Shown piece after piece: positions 56,571 through 60,703 of a stretch of 64,000 bases of DNA. This DNA comes from Herbaspirillum sp. Lineage in GTDB: Bacteria; Pseudomonadota; Gammaproteobacteria; Burkholderiales; Burkholderiaceae_D. The stretch spans positions 1 through 64,000 of the forward strand of contig JAQGLY010000016.1 of assembly GCA_028292625.1 (NCBI GenBank). The letters are read 5' to 3'. Under the pieces are notes generated by a model, which was not told the origin of the DNA, made no database searches, and saw nothing but the letters and a program-made list of their open reading frames with translations. The stretch's first letter is position 1. Each line of letters begins with the position of its first letter. Position numbers and translations under genes: made by a program.

Positions 56571-57176
56571 CTAGGGCAAACGCAATTCGAACAAGGCGCC
56601 GCCGCCGGCGCTGTTGCTGAGCACCGCCATGCCGCGGCTTTCGTCTTTGACATGGGCGGCGGCGATGGCATTGCACAGATCCATGCCGAGTCCGGTGGAA
56701 TGGGTTTTTTCCTTGGCGCCGAGGCCGGGGCCATCGTCGCGCACGGTCAGGGACAGATAGCCGTCGCGCTGCACGCAACCGAGCTCGATGCGCGAGCGCG
56801 CAAAGCGCATCGCATTCTGCAACGCGGCTTCCAGCGCCAGCGCGACCAGGTTTTCATCGAAAAACGCCACCGCCGGCATGTCCGTCGTATCGACCGACAA
56901 CGCCACGCCGGTCTTGCCGCTGCGCAGCTGATGCGTCAGCGAGGTCAGGAAATCCGCCGGCGACACCGAATCGATCTGCGCCGCCAACCCGCTCGACGAT
57001 GCCTTGTACAAGGTCAGGAATCCGATCAGTTTATCCTGCAGGTTCAGACAGATCGCATGCGCATGCTCGGCGCGGCCGGGCGCGGGCGCATCGACCATTT
57101 GCTGCAATTCGCCCTCCAGCACGGCGAGCGCATTCTTGATGTCATGCACGATGATGGCCGACAGTCTCGGGTCCAT
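56571..57176 (-). CDS. small soluble histidine kinase without sensor domain
   Basis: A 201-residue kinase. A putative H-box IIVHDIKNALAVLEG (His11) starts the protein, so there is no input domain. The HATPase domain has EAALQNAMRFA (N box), VRDDGPGLG and STGLGMDLCNAI. The gene follows the receiver-TPR gene with only 2 bases between (TGAGTATG), so both are translated together. The kinase probably phosphorylates the neighbour's receiver and takes its input through it or through the TPR scaffold. Confidence 0.85.
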   Translation of the reverse strand: MDPRLSAIIVHDIKNALAVLEGELQQMVDAPAPGRAEHAHAICLNLQDKLIGFLTLYKASSSGLAAQIDSVSPADFLTSLTHQLRSGKTGVALSVDTTDMPAVAFFDENLVALALEAALQNAMRFARSRIELGCVQRDGYLSLTVRDDGPGLGAKEKTHSTGLGMDLCNAIAAAHVKDESRGMAVLSNSAGGGALFELRLP

Positions 57177-57178
57177 AC

Positions 57179-58807
57179 TCAGATCTTTATTGGATGATTG
57201 TTAAGCGTACGACGCAAAAACAGATGCATTTTTGCGACACGGTCGTTGCCGGGAAGCAATTTATCCAATTTTGACAGATAACCGGTAACGCGGGTCACAT
57301 AATCGCGTTCCACACCTTTCTGGCTCATCCACAGCAAATAGATCTGCGCCGCCGATAGCAGCACGCCGGTATTGTCCGGCATGCTGCTCAGCGCTTCTTC
57401 CAGCTTGGCCAGCGACGCCTCGAACTGCGCCGAACGCATCAAAGCCTGGGCTTCGGCGACAATATTCATGCAATGCTTGACCGGGTCTTCGATCAGCTCC
57501 GCCACCAGCGTTTCCTTGCCGGCGTCGCCTAGCACGCGTTTGGCCTGCGCCAGCAATGCGCGGTTTTCGTGATCCGATTTCACGGCGGCCGAGATCAGCG
57601 CCGCGCCCTCGTCGTCGCGGCCGACCGCAAACGCCGCCCGCGCCAGCAACAGCGTCGCATTGACGCCGGGGGTTTCGCCTGCCTTCTGCTGCGCGACTTC
57701 GAAGGCCTGCTCGGCCTGCTCAAGGTCGCCCAGTTTGACGTAGGCCTGCGCCTGCATCGCCGCCTGCGCGCAGAGAAATGCATTGGATTCGGCATACCTG
57801 AGCGGCACGCCGTTAAACACTTTCAGCGCCGCTTCGCCATCGCCGGTATCGACATACACCTGTGCCAGCGAAATCAGATCCGACGCTTGTCCGGTCATCG
57901 ATCCCTTGCTCAATTTGACGACCTGCGAAAACGCCTCCCCGGCCTGGGCCAGCTCGCCGATCTTGTAGGCCGCATCGCCGACCAGCCGGCTGCGCGGCGC
58001 CGACGGCACCACCCGCGCGGAACGGGCCAGCGCGTTCAGCGCCGCATTGTCGTCGCCGGTCATGCCGGCAATATGCGCCAGCAAATCGTAAGCCTCGATA
58101 TATTGGGGATTTTTGATCAGTATCGCCTCGACCATCGCCCGCGCCTTGGCCGGCTCGCCGGCGGCGATTTCGCATTTGGCCAGGCCGAGCGAAGCCCAGA
58201 TCAGATCGTCGCGCAGCGCCAGCGCACGCCGGTAAAGTTCGCCGGCTTCGTCGGGCCGCTGCAGTTCCAGCAGCATGCGGCCCTTGAGCTTGAGGATGTC
58301 GACAATCCATTTGGGTTCCGCCGCCAGCACCTGGTCGCAGGCGGCGACCGCGCCGGCTGTGTCCTTGCGCGCGATGCAGTCGGTGATCGGCAGAAAGGTG
58401 TTTTGCTTGTCCAGCATGCGCCCGATACGCTCTGCCAGCTTGGTGGCGGTCAACGGCTTGAGCATATAAGCGTCGGGCTTGAATTCGGCCGCGCCGGCCA
58501 CCGAGCTGTAACTGGTCTCCGCCGTCACCATGATGAAAATGGTGGATTCGGGCAGCAAGTTGTGAGAGCGGAAATACTCCAGCAGATGCTGGCCGTTGGT
58601 CTCCCGATTCAGGTTGTAATCGCAGACGATGACGTCGTAACTGTTTTTCTGAACGAACTGAATCGCTTCATCGGGCGTAGCCGCCTGATCGACACGCGTC
58701 ATGCCCAGTTGACCCAGATGCAGACGGATGTTCTGGCGCATGCCGGCCAGATCGTCGATCACCAGCGAACGCAGCGTCGCAAGACGGCTAAAAGAAACGG
58801 ATGCCAT
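57179..58807 (-). CDS. response regulator receiver-TPR protein
   Basis: A 542-residue protein. The receiver (about 12-130) has VIDDLAG, the phospho-acceptor Asp63 in VCDYNLN and Lys in AYMLKPLTATK. The rest (150-530) is TPR-like helical repeats (AIQ..., ALRDDLIWASLGLAKCEIAAGEP, YDLLAHIAGMTGDDNAALNAL). There is no DNA-binding or enzyme domain, so output is by protein-protein contacts. It is coupled to the sensorless kinase, and follows the CoaD-HD gene by 138 bases on the same strand. Confidence 0.87.
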   Translation of the reverse strand: MASVSFSRLATLRSLVIDDLAGMRQNIRLHLGQLGMTRVDQAATPDEAIQFVQKNSYDVIVCDYNLNRETNGQHLLEYFRSHNLLPESTIFIMVTAETSYSSVAGAAEFKPDAYMLKPLTATKLAERIGRMLDKQNTFLPITDCIARKDTAGAVAACDQVLAAEPKWIVDILKLKGRMLLELQRPDEAGELYRRALALRDDLIWASLGLAKCEIAAGEPAKARAMVEAILIKNPQYIEAYDLLAHIAGMTGDDNAALNALARSARVVPSAPRSRLVGDAAYKIGELAQAGEAFSQVVKLSKGSMTGQASDLISLAQVYVDTGDGEAALKVFNGVPLRYAESNAFLCAQAAMQAQAYVKLGDLEQAEQAFEVAQQKAGETPGVNATLLLARAAFAVGRDDEGAALISAAVKSDHENRALLAQAKRVLGDAGKETLVAELIEDPVKHCMNIVAEAQALMRSAQFEASLAKLEEALSSMPDNTGVLLSAAQIYLLWMSQKGVERDYVTRVTGYLSKLDKLLPGNDRVAKMHLFLRRTLNNHPIKI

Positions 58808-58945: not shown

Positions 58946-60184
58946 TTATGCGCCGGGCAAGTCCTCCAGGCGGCCGATTTCGCGGCTCAGGTTGGCGATG
59001 GCGCTGCGATTGTATTGGGTCGCGAAATACGGATCCCGATACAGGCGTCCGGCGGCGGCCCGATCCCGCAATTGCGTCATCACCCGCATGCGCCAGGGCC
59101 GGTATTCCGCATCGGGCACCTGGCTTTGTTCATCGCGCACCGCCTGGGCATACATATCGTAGACATCCTCTTCCTGCCCGAAAATGGCCAGATCGACGGA
59201 CTGTATCGTGTCTTTCAATGGATGCGCGACGGCCGGTTCCCGCGAGTGATCGGTCGCGCGGATCAAATCGGCAACCTGATCCGCGGCGGCCGGATCGAGC
59301 CCGCTTTCCAGCCATAAGCAGGCGCTGCGTTCCACGTCCGAGGCGGCCGTGGCGGCCGCGCTTGCCGCGGTGGCGCCCTTCTTGTCGTTCGCGCCCCGGT
59401 TCGCCGCACGCTTGCTGCCGAGATTTCTGCATTCGCCGCCATACACCCCATCGTGAAACCAGAATGCTTTCTTCAGCAGCACCAGCGCCTCCGGCGTGGC
59501 CGCGGTATTCAATCCCCACACCCGGATTTCGGTCAAACCGTGCACCAGATGGTCCAGATTACGATAATGCCGCAGCGAGCCGCCGTAGCTGGTGTCGCCG
59601 ATCAGGCGCTCGAACCACTCATCGGCCTGGCGTATCGCTTGCGGCGTCACGCCCGCTGCGCTGTATTGCCACAGCGCCTCCCATTCCTTGCGCAGCCATT
59701 CCAACAGCCAAGCCCGATGTGCCGGGCCCGGGATGAATTTGCTGACGTTCCAGTTCCAGCCGACCGGCCCCTGCAGCATGGCGACGAAACTGGAGCTGAC
59801 CGATCCCAGATCGCGCGGCGGCATCACGAAAATGGTCTTCGCGCCGTGCAGCACGTCGACATTGGTTTGCTGAATCAGATTTTCGTAGTCGAAATCGGCG
59901 GTGTTGCGAATGCCGCGGATCAGGTAGTCGATGCCGTGTTTTTTGGCCGCGCGGGCCGTGTAATCGCCTTTGACGATAATCACGCGCACATTGTGCCAAC
60001 CGCGTTCGGCGGCGCTCTGCTCAATGATCTGCTTGCGTTTTTCGGCCGGAAATTGCGGCCGCTTGGCGGAATTTTCGGACAGGAACACGGTCACTTCGTC
60101 GGCCAGCGAACGGGCTTCTTCGATCACCCACATATGACCGTTGGTGATCGGGTCCAAAGTGCCGGAAAAGGCTATTTTTTTCAT
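58946..60184 (-). CDS. CoaD-type phosphopantetheine adenylyltransferase fused to a COG4339 HD-domain
   Basis: A 412-residue two-domain protein. Residues 1-165 are a full CoaD-like domain. It has GTLDPITNGH with His17, Lys41 in SAKRP, Arg90 in YLIRGIRNTADFDYE and the SSSF motif near 130, so the key catalytic residues for joining 4'-phosphopantetheine and ATP are present. Residues 175-410 resemble the metal-dependent HD phosphohydrolases of COG4339 (RHYRNLDHLVHGL, FWFHDGVYGG with His244-Asp245, RATDHSREP, VDLAIFGQ). One usual His (YHN) is Arg, and an Ala-rich insert (about 257-282) breaks the second domain. Its reaction is unknown. Confidence 0.78.
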   Translation of the reverse strand: MKKIAFSGTLDPITNGHMWVIEEARSLADEVTVFLSENSAKRPQFPAEKRKQIIEQSAAERGWHNVRVIIVKGDYTARAAKKHGIDYLIRGIRNTADFDYENLIQQTNVDVLHGAKTIFVMPPRDLGSVSSSFVAMLQGPVGWNWNVSKFIPGPAHRAWLLEWLRKEWEALWQYSAAGVTPQAIRQADEWFERLIGDTSYGGSLRHYRNLDHLVHGLTEIRVWGLNTAATPEALVLLKKAFWFHDGVYGGECRNLGSKRAANRGANDKKGATAASAAATAASDVERSACLWLESGLDPAAADQVADLIRATDHSREPAVAHPLKDTIQSVDLAIFGQEEDVYDMYAQAVRDEQSQVPDAEYRPWRMRVMTQLRDRAAAGRLYRDPYFATQYNRSAIANLSREIGRLEDLPGA

Positions 60185-60202: not shown

Positions 60203-60490
60203 TCAAGTCCCGCTATCGTCGCAAAAAGCGGCCAGGAATGTGCTGACGCTGGGAATGGCCGGATCTTCTTCGTAAATCTGCAATGCAAATGCGCGGGCCT
60301 TGTCCATCAGGCCGCTTTCCTTGGCCGCATAAAAGCCCTGCAGTCGACCCTGTATCCGATACACTCCCTCGAACGCATCGATATTGTCTTCGATCAAACT
60401 GAGCGCGCCGCTGTAATCGTGCTTCTGACGCAACGAGGCAGCTTCGATAATCAATTCTTTGGGGGGTTTTAAATGCTTGTTCGACACCAT
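60203..60490 (-). CDS. small helical (TPR-like) protein upstream of the CoaD-HD gene
   Basis: A 95-residue cytoplasmic protein starting MVSNKHLKPPKELIIEAASL. Its helices (LRQKHDYSGALSLIEDNID, GFYAAKESGLMDKARAFALQIYEED) look like two TPR units. AAGGA lies 6 bases before the ATG at 60490. Its stop lies 18 bases from the CoaD-HD start, so they form an operon, and it may be a partner of that fusion. I do not recognise a family. Confidence 0.65.
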   Translation of the reverse strand: MVSNKHLKPPKELIIEAASLRQKHDYSGALSLIEDNIDAFEGVYRIQGRLQGFYAAKESGLMDKARAFALQIYEEDPAIPSVSTFLAAFCDDSGT

Positions 60491-60703
60491 CGGAAATCCT
60501 TGTTTAACACGGAGCGCTCCCACGCTCTGGGCGGTCATCCGTGATAATCGATGGAGGCCGCCAGCCCGGTCAGGGTCTGTAATTCGTTTGTTGATCATAC
60601 ATCAATTTCCAGACGCCATTCTCACGGACGGATCGGTAAACGTAAACAATTGATAACACCGCCGCGAGCGCGCCCTTCGGGCAAATCGCGTTAAGGGGAG
60701 CTC

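Follow-up and report, generated by a model that had tools for sequence, protein, structure and literature searches.

The 64,000-nucleotide stretch of Herbaspirillum sp. DNA analyzed here (contig JAQGLY010000016.1, positions 1 to 64,000, hereafter the window) carries on its minus strand an uninterrupted open reading frame (ORF) of 412 residues (58946–60184), in which a phosphopantetheine adenylyltransferase (PPAT, CoaD) domain is fused to an HD phosphohydrolase domain. The CoaD domain (residues 1–160; 59705–60184, minus strand) was assigned from its match to TIGR01510, its PPAT fold and its conserved residues, and the HD domain (residues 161–412; 58949–59704, minus strand) from its conserved H/HD/D residues and from the phosphodiesterase (PDE)-like model of the corresponding domain in L034, a close relative. 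The AlphaFold2 model of the fusion, based on an alignment of 22 fusion sequences, has a mean predicted local distance difference test score (pLDDT) of 88.4 and a predicted template modeling score of 0.85. An initial annotation, made from the letters alone, had described such a joined protein and had raised the possibility of a sequence error joining two genes. This possibility was ruled out: the frame is open throughout without a break, and the same architecture recurs in many other genomes at 53–76% identity. The HD site is intact in the family. The CoaD-HD fusion is real and old.

Among named contigs, 49 fusion loci were located, mainly in Janthinobacterium, Massilia, Undibacterium and Herbaspirillum-like genomes. 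Two of them are broken or partial: the L072 locus is cut at its start, and at L079 (Massilia sp. H-1, a complete genome) the fusion is split into overlapping frames, representing either a pseudogene or sequencing errors. The residue tallies given below comprise 49 fusions, namely the window copy, L005 and 47 of the 49 named-contig loci; L072, in which the match begins at residue 18, and L079 were omitted, and L003 and L004 were dropped as identical to L033 and L032. In the window's family, a match with an E-value of 1e-40 or better was obtained in 125 of 392 genomes searched, representing 11 of 44 genera, with the match in one of the 125 (G291) spanning residues 152–381 only. In the window's genus, the fusion is present in 3 of the 34 genomes searched. 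The order-level search (399 genomes) found 34 genomes besides the window's own with a match to an HD-only profile, and no CoaD half was found within approximately 1.5 kb of 29 fetched order-level HD matches and four from the phylum-level search, although both positive controls were detected. At the phylum level (398 genomes), the window's own protein is the only match spanning both domains among the matches listed, in a list that any fusions would head, and none of the 76 plasmid records with a match covers 80% of the fusion protein. A wide distribution of the fusion in bacteria was thus not borne out by the order-level, phylum-level and plasmid searches.

A search of viral_contigs with the window protein gave no relative. 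The huge phage LR756500.1 (462 kb) encodes a homologue with 25% identity to the query and a coverage of 98%, and the same phage protein also occurs in one IMG/VR contig. The architecture, for which the initial annotation had proposed a search across proteomes, recurs in the family and in one huge phage. A single origin of the bacterial and phage fusions was not rejected by the approximately unbiased test (p-AU of 0.208 for the HD domain without L147 and 0.474 for the CoaD domain without L148 and L143), with long branches flagged in both trees. The neighbors of the phage fusion (L081:1-17137 of LR756500.1) encode an ADP-ribosylglycohydrolase, a PARP-type protein, a cyclic-phosphate-processing receiver domain and a PIN domain, and a weak MazG-like match falls under the cut-off; the phage gene sits in an island of ADP-ribose and nucleotide chemistry.

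The N-terminal half of the window protein scored 113.4 bits against TIGR01510 (cut-off, 103.3 bits), whereas models of nicotinate-nucleotide adenylyltransferase remained far under their cut-offs. The best 34 of the 37 PDB sequence matches are PPATs, and the CoaD half of the model superimposes on solved PPATs with Z-scores up to 23.7 and a root mean square deviation of 1.4 over 156 residues. Thr9, His17, Lys41, Arg90, Arg93, Asn108 and Ser130–Ser132 are identical in all 49 fusions, in agreement with the earlier description of the CoaD domain as catalytically complete; Asn108, too, has a role in PPATs. The mean identity among the 49 fusions is 83% in the CoaD half and 60% in the HD half. Over 11 pairs, the ratio of nonsynonymous to synonymous substitutions (dN/dS, from simple Nei-Gojobori counts) was 0.01–0.16 in the CoaD half and 0.08–0.43 in the HD half, where one value was undefined through saturation. 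Judged from these ratios, the CoaD half is under strong purifying selection. In a study on PPATs, residues T10, H18, K42, R88, R91 and S128–130, the counterparts of Thr9, His17, Lys41, Arg90, Arg93 and Ser130–Ser132 in the fusions, are assigned to substrate binding or catalysis, and the P8A mutation is described as abolishing the forward activity of the Helicobacter pylori enzyme (PMC12784347). By every sequence test made except that at the Pro8 position, the N-terminal half is a CoaD.

In the HD half, His212, His244 and Asp245 are present in all 49 fusions and Asp331 in 48 of them. His208 in the Y-H-N-x-x-H motif is likewise present in 48, the window copy alone having Arg, and its column is invariant His in an alignment of 32 fused and standalone HD domains prepared without the window copy. 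Against Pfam and NCBIfam, the HD half gave no match over a cut-off, and PDB sequence searches with HD domains yielded nothing convincing or relevant. PF01966 (HD) was matched by one of the 32 HD domains, at an E-value of 0.1 only, and DUF4202 gave weak Pfam matches in three (best E-value, 0.004). Neither the 22 fusions nor the 32 HD domains matched PF04336 (AcpH), and PF00233 (class I PDE) was not matched in the HD domains. Scans with Pfam/NCBIfam-type profiles gave no match of the HD half to a YqeK model (COG1713). PHROG 19425, a phage "phosphohydrolase" family, matched the HD half at 6.5e-11. Phage homologues are annotated with the same word, and a homologous cyanobacterial gene is annotated as "N-methyl-D-aspartate receptor NMDAR2C subunit". 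The label COG4339, given to this domain in the initial annotation, is a putative one. According to PMC11898892, a fungal HD protein is filed as "phosphopantetheine adenylyltransferase" in PANTHER PTHR21174:SF0, and this name looks carried over from a CoaD-HD fusion.

The model of the HD half of L034 has a pLDDT of 94.6. In the VIA-align 2 comparison, it aligned with human PDE2A over 217 of 226 residues with a Z-score of 17.4 at 14% identity, and the best 50 rows were all cyclic-nucleotide PDEs; because VIA-align 2 re-examines the Foldseek list alone, in which the best 50 rows are 49 PDEs and one other HD hydrolase (2pq7), this likeness is relative to that list. The modeled HD half of L034 thus resembles the class I cyclic-nucleotide PDEs, in which the first His of the YHN motif is the general acid and HDxxHxxxxN is the second motif. 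The aligned ranges (L034 model 1–226 to PDE2A 611–906) are consistent with His208 as the general-acid counterpart. The HDxxHxxxxN motif was not found in the fusions, which usually have HDxxY, and most copies lack a His three residues after HD; a few, such as L032 and L033, have HDxVH without the Asn five residues on. Although its metal residues are those of the HD superfamily and its fold is PDE-like, the HD half is not filed here with the class I PDEs, because the HDxxHxxxxN signature is absent and no curated family matched it over a cut-off.

The window genome contains a canonical coaD elsewhere (G000:C65:30342-30806), which rules out the fusion as its only coaD. The initial annotation had proposed looking for such a housekeeping gene, and one was found both here and in all 15 distinct fusion genomes (from 16 entries, because G061 is the same as G026), in which the canonical CoaD scored 183–189 bits and the fusion 110–125 bits, also over the cut-off. 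A housekeeping CoaE is likewise present in 15/15. The family search found a second CoaE in six of these genomes, and the window genome has one CoaE in total. At 15 of the 49 loci, a CoaE paralogue (CoaE') lies directly upstream of the fusion on the same strand, with a 4-nt overlap or a gap of 1–4 nt at the 12 junctions measured. Three of the 15 paralogues were scored against TIGR00152 (CoaE), and all pass the cut-off of 65.55 bits (83.3, 109.3 and 82.7 bits); the P-loop and the D-x-D motif are kept in the 12 aligned CoaE' sequences. The link to coenzyme A (CoA) chemistry is therefore stronger than the initial annotation, which knew of no CoaE partner, could have supposed.

Upstream of the CoaE'-fusion operon, we observed paired palindromes of the approximate sequence TTGGTyrAnyrACCAA, approximately 59 bp (51–60 bp) apart. 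Allowing one half-site mismatch, the pair is present at 14 of the 49 loci, which are 13 of the 15 CoaE' loci (not L034 and L035) and L066, where it directly precedes the fusion. At 10 of the 49 loci, there is an adjacent, divergently oriented TetR gene. The exact palindrome pattern occurs in 7 of 18 whole genomes, at one to four sites each; a reversed control pattern gave no site in those seven and one or two in G016, G018 and G024. A close homologue of the TetR protein occurs once in each of the same seven genomes and, at an E-value of 1e-25, in none of the other 11, and with two further genomes that also lack it the count is 7/20, although the genomes having both operator and TetR gene are related and do not represent independent events. 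The TetR protein is BetI-like but far under the BetI cut-off.

Pairs 59 bp apart also precede a gene for a Spinster-like transporter of the major facilitator superfamily in four genomes (G065:C103:153517-154935, G066:C2:303436-304830, G067:C14:49391-50804 and G068:C6:1541402-1542751), which are the 4 of 20 genomes with a close homologue of it. The closest PDB entries to the transporter are 6e8j (a major facilitator family transporter), SPNS1 and SPNS2. Each of the CoaE' sites of G065 has a mismatch, so that the exact matches in this genome comprise the pair before the transporter gene and a single site within an ORF; in G065 and G067, the TetR gene adjoins neither target. The fusion of G068 has neither an operator nor a CoaE'. 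In the same genome, the TetR gene is followed by a GMC oxidoreductase gene (L166:5846-7606) with a partial cholesterol-oxidase match under the cut-off. Unpaired operator matches at G065:C37 and G070:C333 lie inside ORFs and were dropped from the regulon, and no operator site was found in the window. In Massilia, Undibacterium and relatives, a putative TetR repressor would control the operon through the paired operator and, in four genomes, also the transporter gene.

The CoaE' partner, the shared palindrome pair and the co-occurrence of the TetR gene suggest that the fusion is part of an accessory, separately regulated CoA-type module. That relatives of Janthinobacterium have a second CoaD fused to a phosphate-cutting domain, in some cases beside a second CoaE, is indicative of an accessory pathway, under its own control, to CoA or a similar compound. 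As a more specific reading, we propose that the fusion is an accessory PPAT with a PDE-like HD domain, which acts in the order HD, CoaD and CoaE in a module for CoA assembly besides the housekeeping CoaD and CoaE; this proposal is tentative, and could well be right but is somewhat more apt to be wrong. The HD half would cut a phosphoester, either of a holo-carrier protein or of another phosphopantetheinyl compound, to give 4'-phosphopantetheine. The CoaD half would then join 4'-phosphopantetheine to AMP from ATP, yielding dephospho-CoA, and CoA would be formed on addition of the 3'-phosphate by CoaE' or, in genomes without the paralogue such as that of the window, by the housekeeping CoaE. In such a chain, a phosphodiester would become a phosphomonoester, an adenylyl adduct and finally a 3'-phosphorylated product, with each product handed on to the next enzyme. 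In favor of the proposal are, besides the CoaE' partner and the operator, the housekeeping CoaD and CoaE kept in all 15 distinct fusion genomes, the purifying selection on the CoaD half with its retained residues, and the PDE-like fold of the HD half. The first step would have a parallel in AcpH, which belongs to the HD family and frees carrier proteins of 4'-phosphopantetheine, the substrate of CoaD (PMC8557913). The fusion itself, the conserved CoaD site, the HD site of the family, the CoaE partner and the shared operator are all read from sequence, and the substrates, the direction of flow and the TetR binding are inferred.

Several observations weigh against this proposal. The HD domain has no detectable sequence relation to two AcpHs (hhalign probability of 0.2%). 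AcpH is encoded as a separate gene in 6 of the 15 fusion genomes, where another ACP hydrolase would thus be superfluous, and is absent from the other nine. Of 15 comparison genomes without a listed fusion, 14 lack it as well; replacement of AcpH by the fusion was rejected because no clean pattern of presence and absence emerges across the two sets. The structural match to PDEs is a match of fold at 14% identity, and the best Foldseek E-value was 0.018, with none at or below 0.001. At 34 of the 49 loci, no neighboring CoaE paralogue was detected. The 12 aligned CoaE' sequences lack the VPLL[VI]E stretch of seven housekeeping CoaEs and share the motifs WESAL and HQ[DN]..HP. In the tree, the fusion CoaD lies on a long branch apart from the family's own CoaD, and the Pro8 position is Ser in the aligned bacterial fusions. 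The same position is Ala in the phage fusion and in GW-type CoaDs, and, being a single active-site position, it was not treated as family-defining. Together, the changed CoaE' motifs, the long CoaD branch and the replacement of Pro8 by Ser may mean that both enzymes use non-CoA intermediates.

The main rival explanation is proofreading, in which the HD half would hydrolyze what the CoaD half makes in error or in surplus, such as dephospho-CoA analogues that contain an incorrect nucleotide or acceptor, or Ap4A-like by-products. It has a model in YqeK, an HD protein fused to or clustered with NadD, which hydrolyzes erroneous NadD products according to PMC9426524; the analogy with NadD and YqeK drawn in the initial annotation was accordingly already in print. 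The CoaD-HD protein shares with NadD-YqeK the fusion of an adenylyltransferase of the same superfamily to an HD hydrolase, and the faster evolution of its HD half than of its CoaD half fits a loose specificity. However, CoaD takes the place of NadD, the HD half matched neither YqeK nor any other HD model over its cut-off, and its model resembles phosphodiesterases instead of the diphosphatases expected of a proofreading enzyme. CoaE' and a TetR-type gene accompany the fusion at part of the loci, and proofreading would leave unexplained the CoaE partner and the transporter under the same operator. In its workings the protein resembles bifunctional adenylyltransferase-HD proteins such as NadD-YqeK, without being one of them, and we regard proofreading as a rather unlikely account of it.

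A still less probable alternative, which we consider unlikely, is that the fusion acts with CoaE', the TetR gene and the Spinster-like transporter in a pathway of their own for a CoA-like nucleotide other than CoA, perhaps one for signaling or export. The CoaD half would adenylylate another phosphomonoester and CoaE' would phosphorylate the product, with the HD half supplying or destroying it and the Spinster-like carrier moving it. The long branch of the fusion CoaD and the consistent new motifs of CoaE' look as if both enzymes had changed together in tracking one new substrate, and canonical CoaD and CoaE are retained in all 15 distinct fusion genomes. The BetI-like regulator and the best PDB matches of the carrier (6e8j and sphingosine-1-phosphate and Spinster carriers) are also in line with it. 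Against this, the CoaD half of the window and the three scored CoaE' proteins pass the CoaD and CoaE equivalog cut-offs, and the tallied PPAT catalytic residues are kept in 49/49. Moreover, the CoaD type closest to that of the fusion, beside which the tree places it with weak support, is marked by a GW motif (SSTM[IV]KG[LM]VGPxGW) and is the sole CoaD found in G040, G048 and G056 (L007, L008 and L006, respectively; all from the same order), so that this type can be an ordinary PPAT. Nothing points directly to any other molecule, and the CoA-like signal suggested in the initial annotation as the product was not supported.

The window copy deviates from the family in an altered His and an Ala-rich insert, both of which the initial annotation had noticed. 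The codon of residue 208 (59561–59563, minus strand) encodes Arg in place of the YHN-motif His, a replacement unique among the 49 distinct fusions; if the PDE role of this His applies, the general acid is missing from the window copy. An Ala-rich insert at residues 251–278 (59351–59434, minus strand), with pLDDT below 50 at residues 251–264 and 269–278, is mostly a gap in other rows of the alignment and is absent at such length from the other 21 aligned fusions, with L033 and L066 having a few extra residues there. The HD half of the window has dN/dS values of 0.28–0.30 against its two nearest relatives, compared with 0.13 between those relatives. This is a hint of relaxed selection, but values of 0.34 and 0.43 were obtained in pairs with His208 intact. 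The window copy also has neither a CoaE partner nor an operator, and together with the H208R replacement and the private insert this suggests that its HD half may be weakened, probably through H208R. That the HD half is decaying, or is a regulatory, noncatalytic appendage of what is a spare CoaD, would account for H208R, the insert, the dN/dS values, the missing operator and the single CoaE of the genome, but is quite improbable because His212, His244, Asp245 and Asp331 are intact, the frame is open to the end, dN/dS is unexceptional beside the His208-keeping pairs, and the HD active-site residues are retained across the family.

Compared with known systems, the CoaD half is like CoaD/PPAT (TIGR01510) in its fold, TxGH motif, Lys41, Arg90, Arg93, SSS motif and equivalog-level score, and unlike it in being a second, HD-fused copy beside a canonical coaD, on a long branch and with Ser at the Pro8 position. 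The HD half shares with the class I PDEs (PF00233) the whole-domain fold and the order of the Y-H-N-x-x-H, HD and D motifs, and differs in its low identity and in the missing HDxxHxxxxN. Human COASY is a bifunctional CoaD-CoaE, so that CoaD and CoaE activities are physically linked in both systems, but in the bacterial loci CoaE' is encoded by a gene of its own next to the fusion, and the fusion partner of CoaD is the HD domain. AcpH (PF04336) is likewise an HD-type phosphodiesterase, and its product would be the CoaD substrate (PMC8557913), but it has no sequence relation that we found to the HD half and persists as a gene of its own in some fusion genomes.

Around the window copy, a small ORF (60203–60598, minus strand) that is TPR-like by eye precedes the fusion at a distance of 18 nt. 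Neither Pfam nor NCBIfam gave a match to this ORF, and a homologue occupies the same place in L032; it is a possible operon partner in the window's clade. Downstream are a gene for a receiver-TPR protein (57179–58807, minus strand) with Response_reg and TPR matches, as also found in L032 and L033, and further on one for a histidine-kinase-type HATPase protein (56571–57176, minus strand; PF02518). The initial annotation was thus right about the receiver-TPR and kinase pair, but had placed the TPR-like ORF downstream instead of upstream. The receiver-TPR partner is seen in the nearest relatives only (cluster 26: the window, L032 and L033) and therefore says little about the function of the fusion. 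At the Janthinobacterium loci, the upstream genes, named by eye, encode a DegP-like protease and a two-component pair. Single-domain homologues were observed in other phages. In Rhodococcus phage Trina (L147, 1129–8501), a standalone HD homologue lies near genes for tRNAs, a nucleotidyltransferase, a metallophosphoesterase and a polynucleotide kinase, a neighborhood that hints at an RNA repair role for phage HD proteins. In Myxococcus phage Mx1 (L148, 2501–5390), a CoaD-like gene adjoins a cytidylyltransferase gene near one for nicotinamide phosphoribosyltransferase.

In the literature searched, outside which lay preprints and most subscription journals, we found no description of a CoaD-HD fusion and no paper under the number COG4339. 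The CoaE' partner at 15 of the 49 loci, the paired palindrome at 14, the co-occurrence of the TetR gene and the operator common to the transporter are new here. For its HD family, in which we detected neither a match over a Pfam or NCBIfam cut-off nor a PDB sequence relative, the fusion also opens a first way towards a function. If the proposed route is true, accessory, fused and separately controlled CoA enzymes would constitute a second, conditional branch of CoA metabolism in some bacteria, and the old question of the purpose of carrier-protein or CoA turnover would become testable in bacteria commonly used in the laboratory, such as Janthinobacterium and Massilia.

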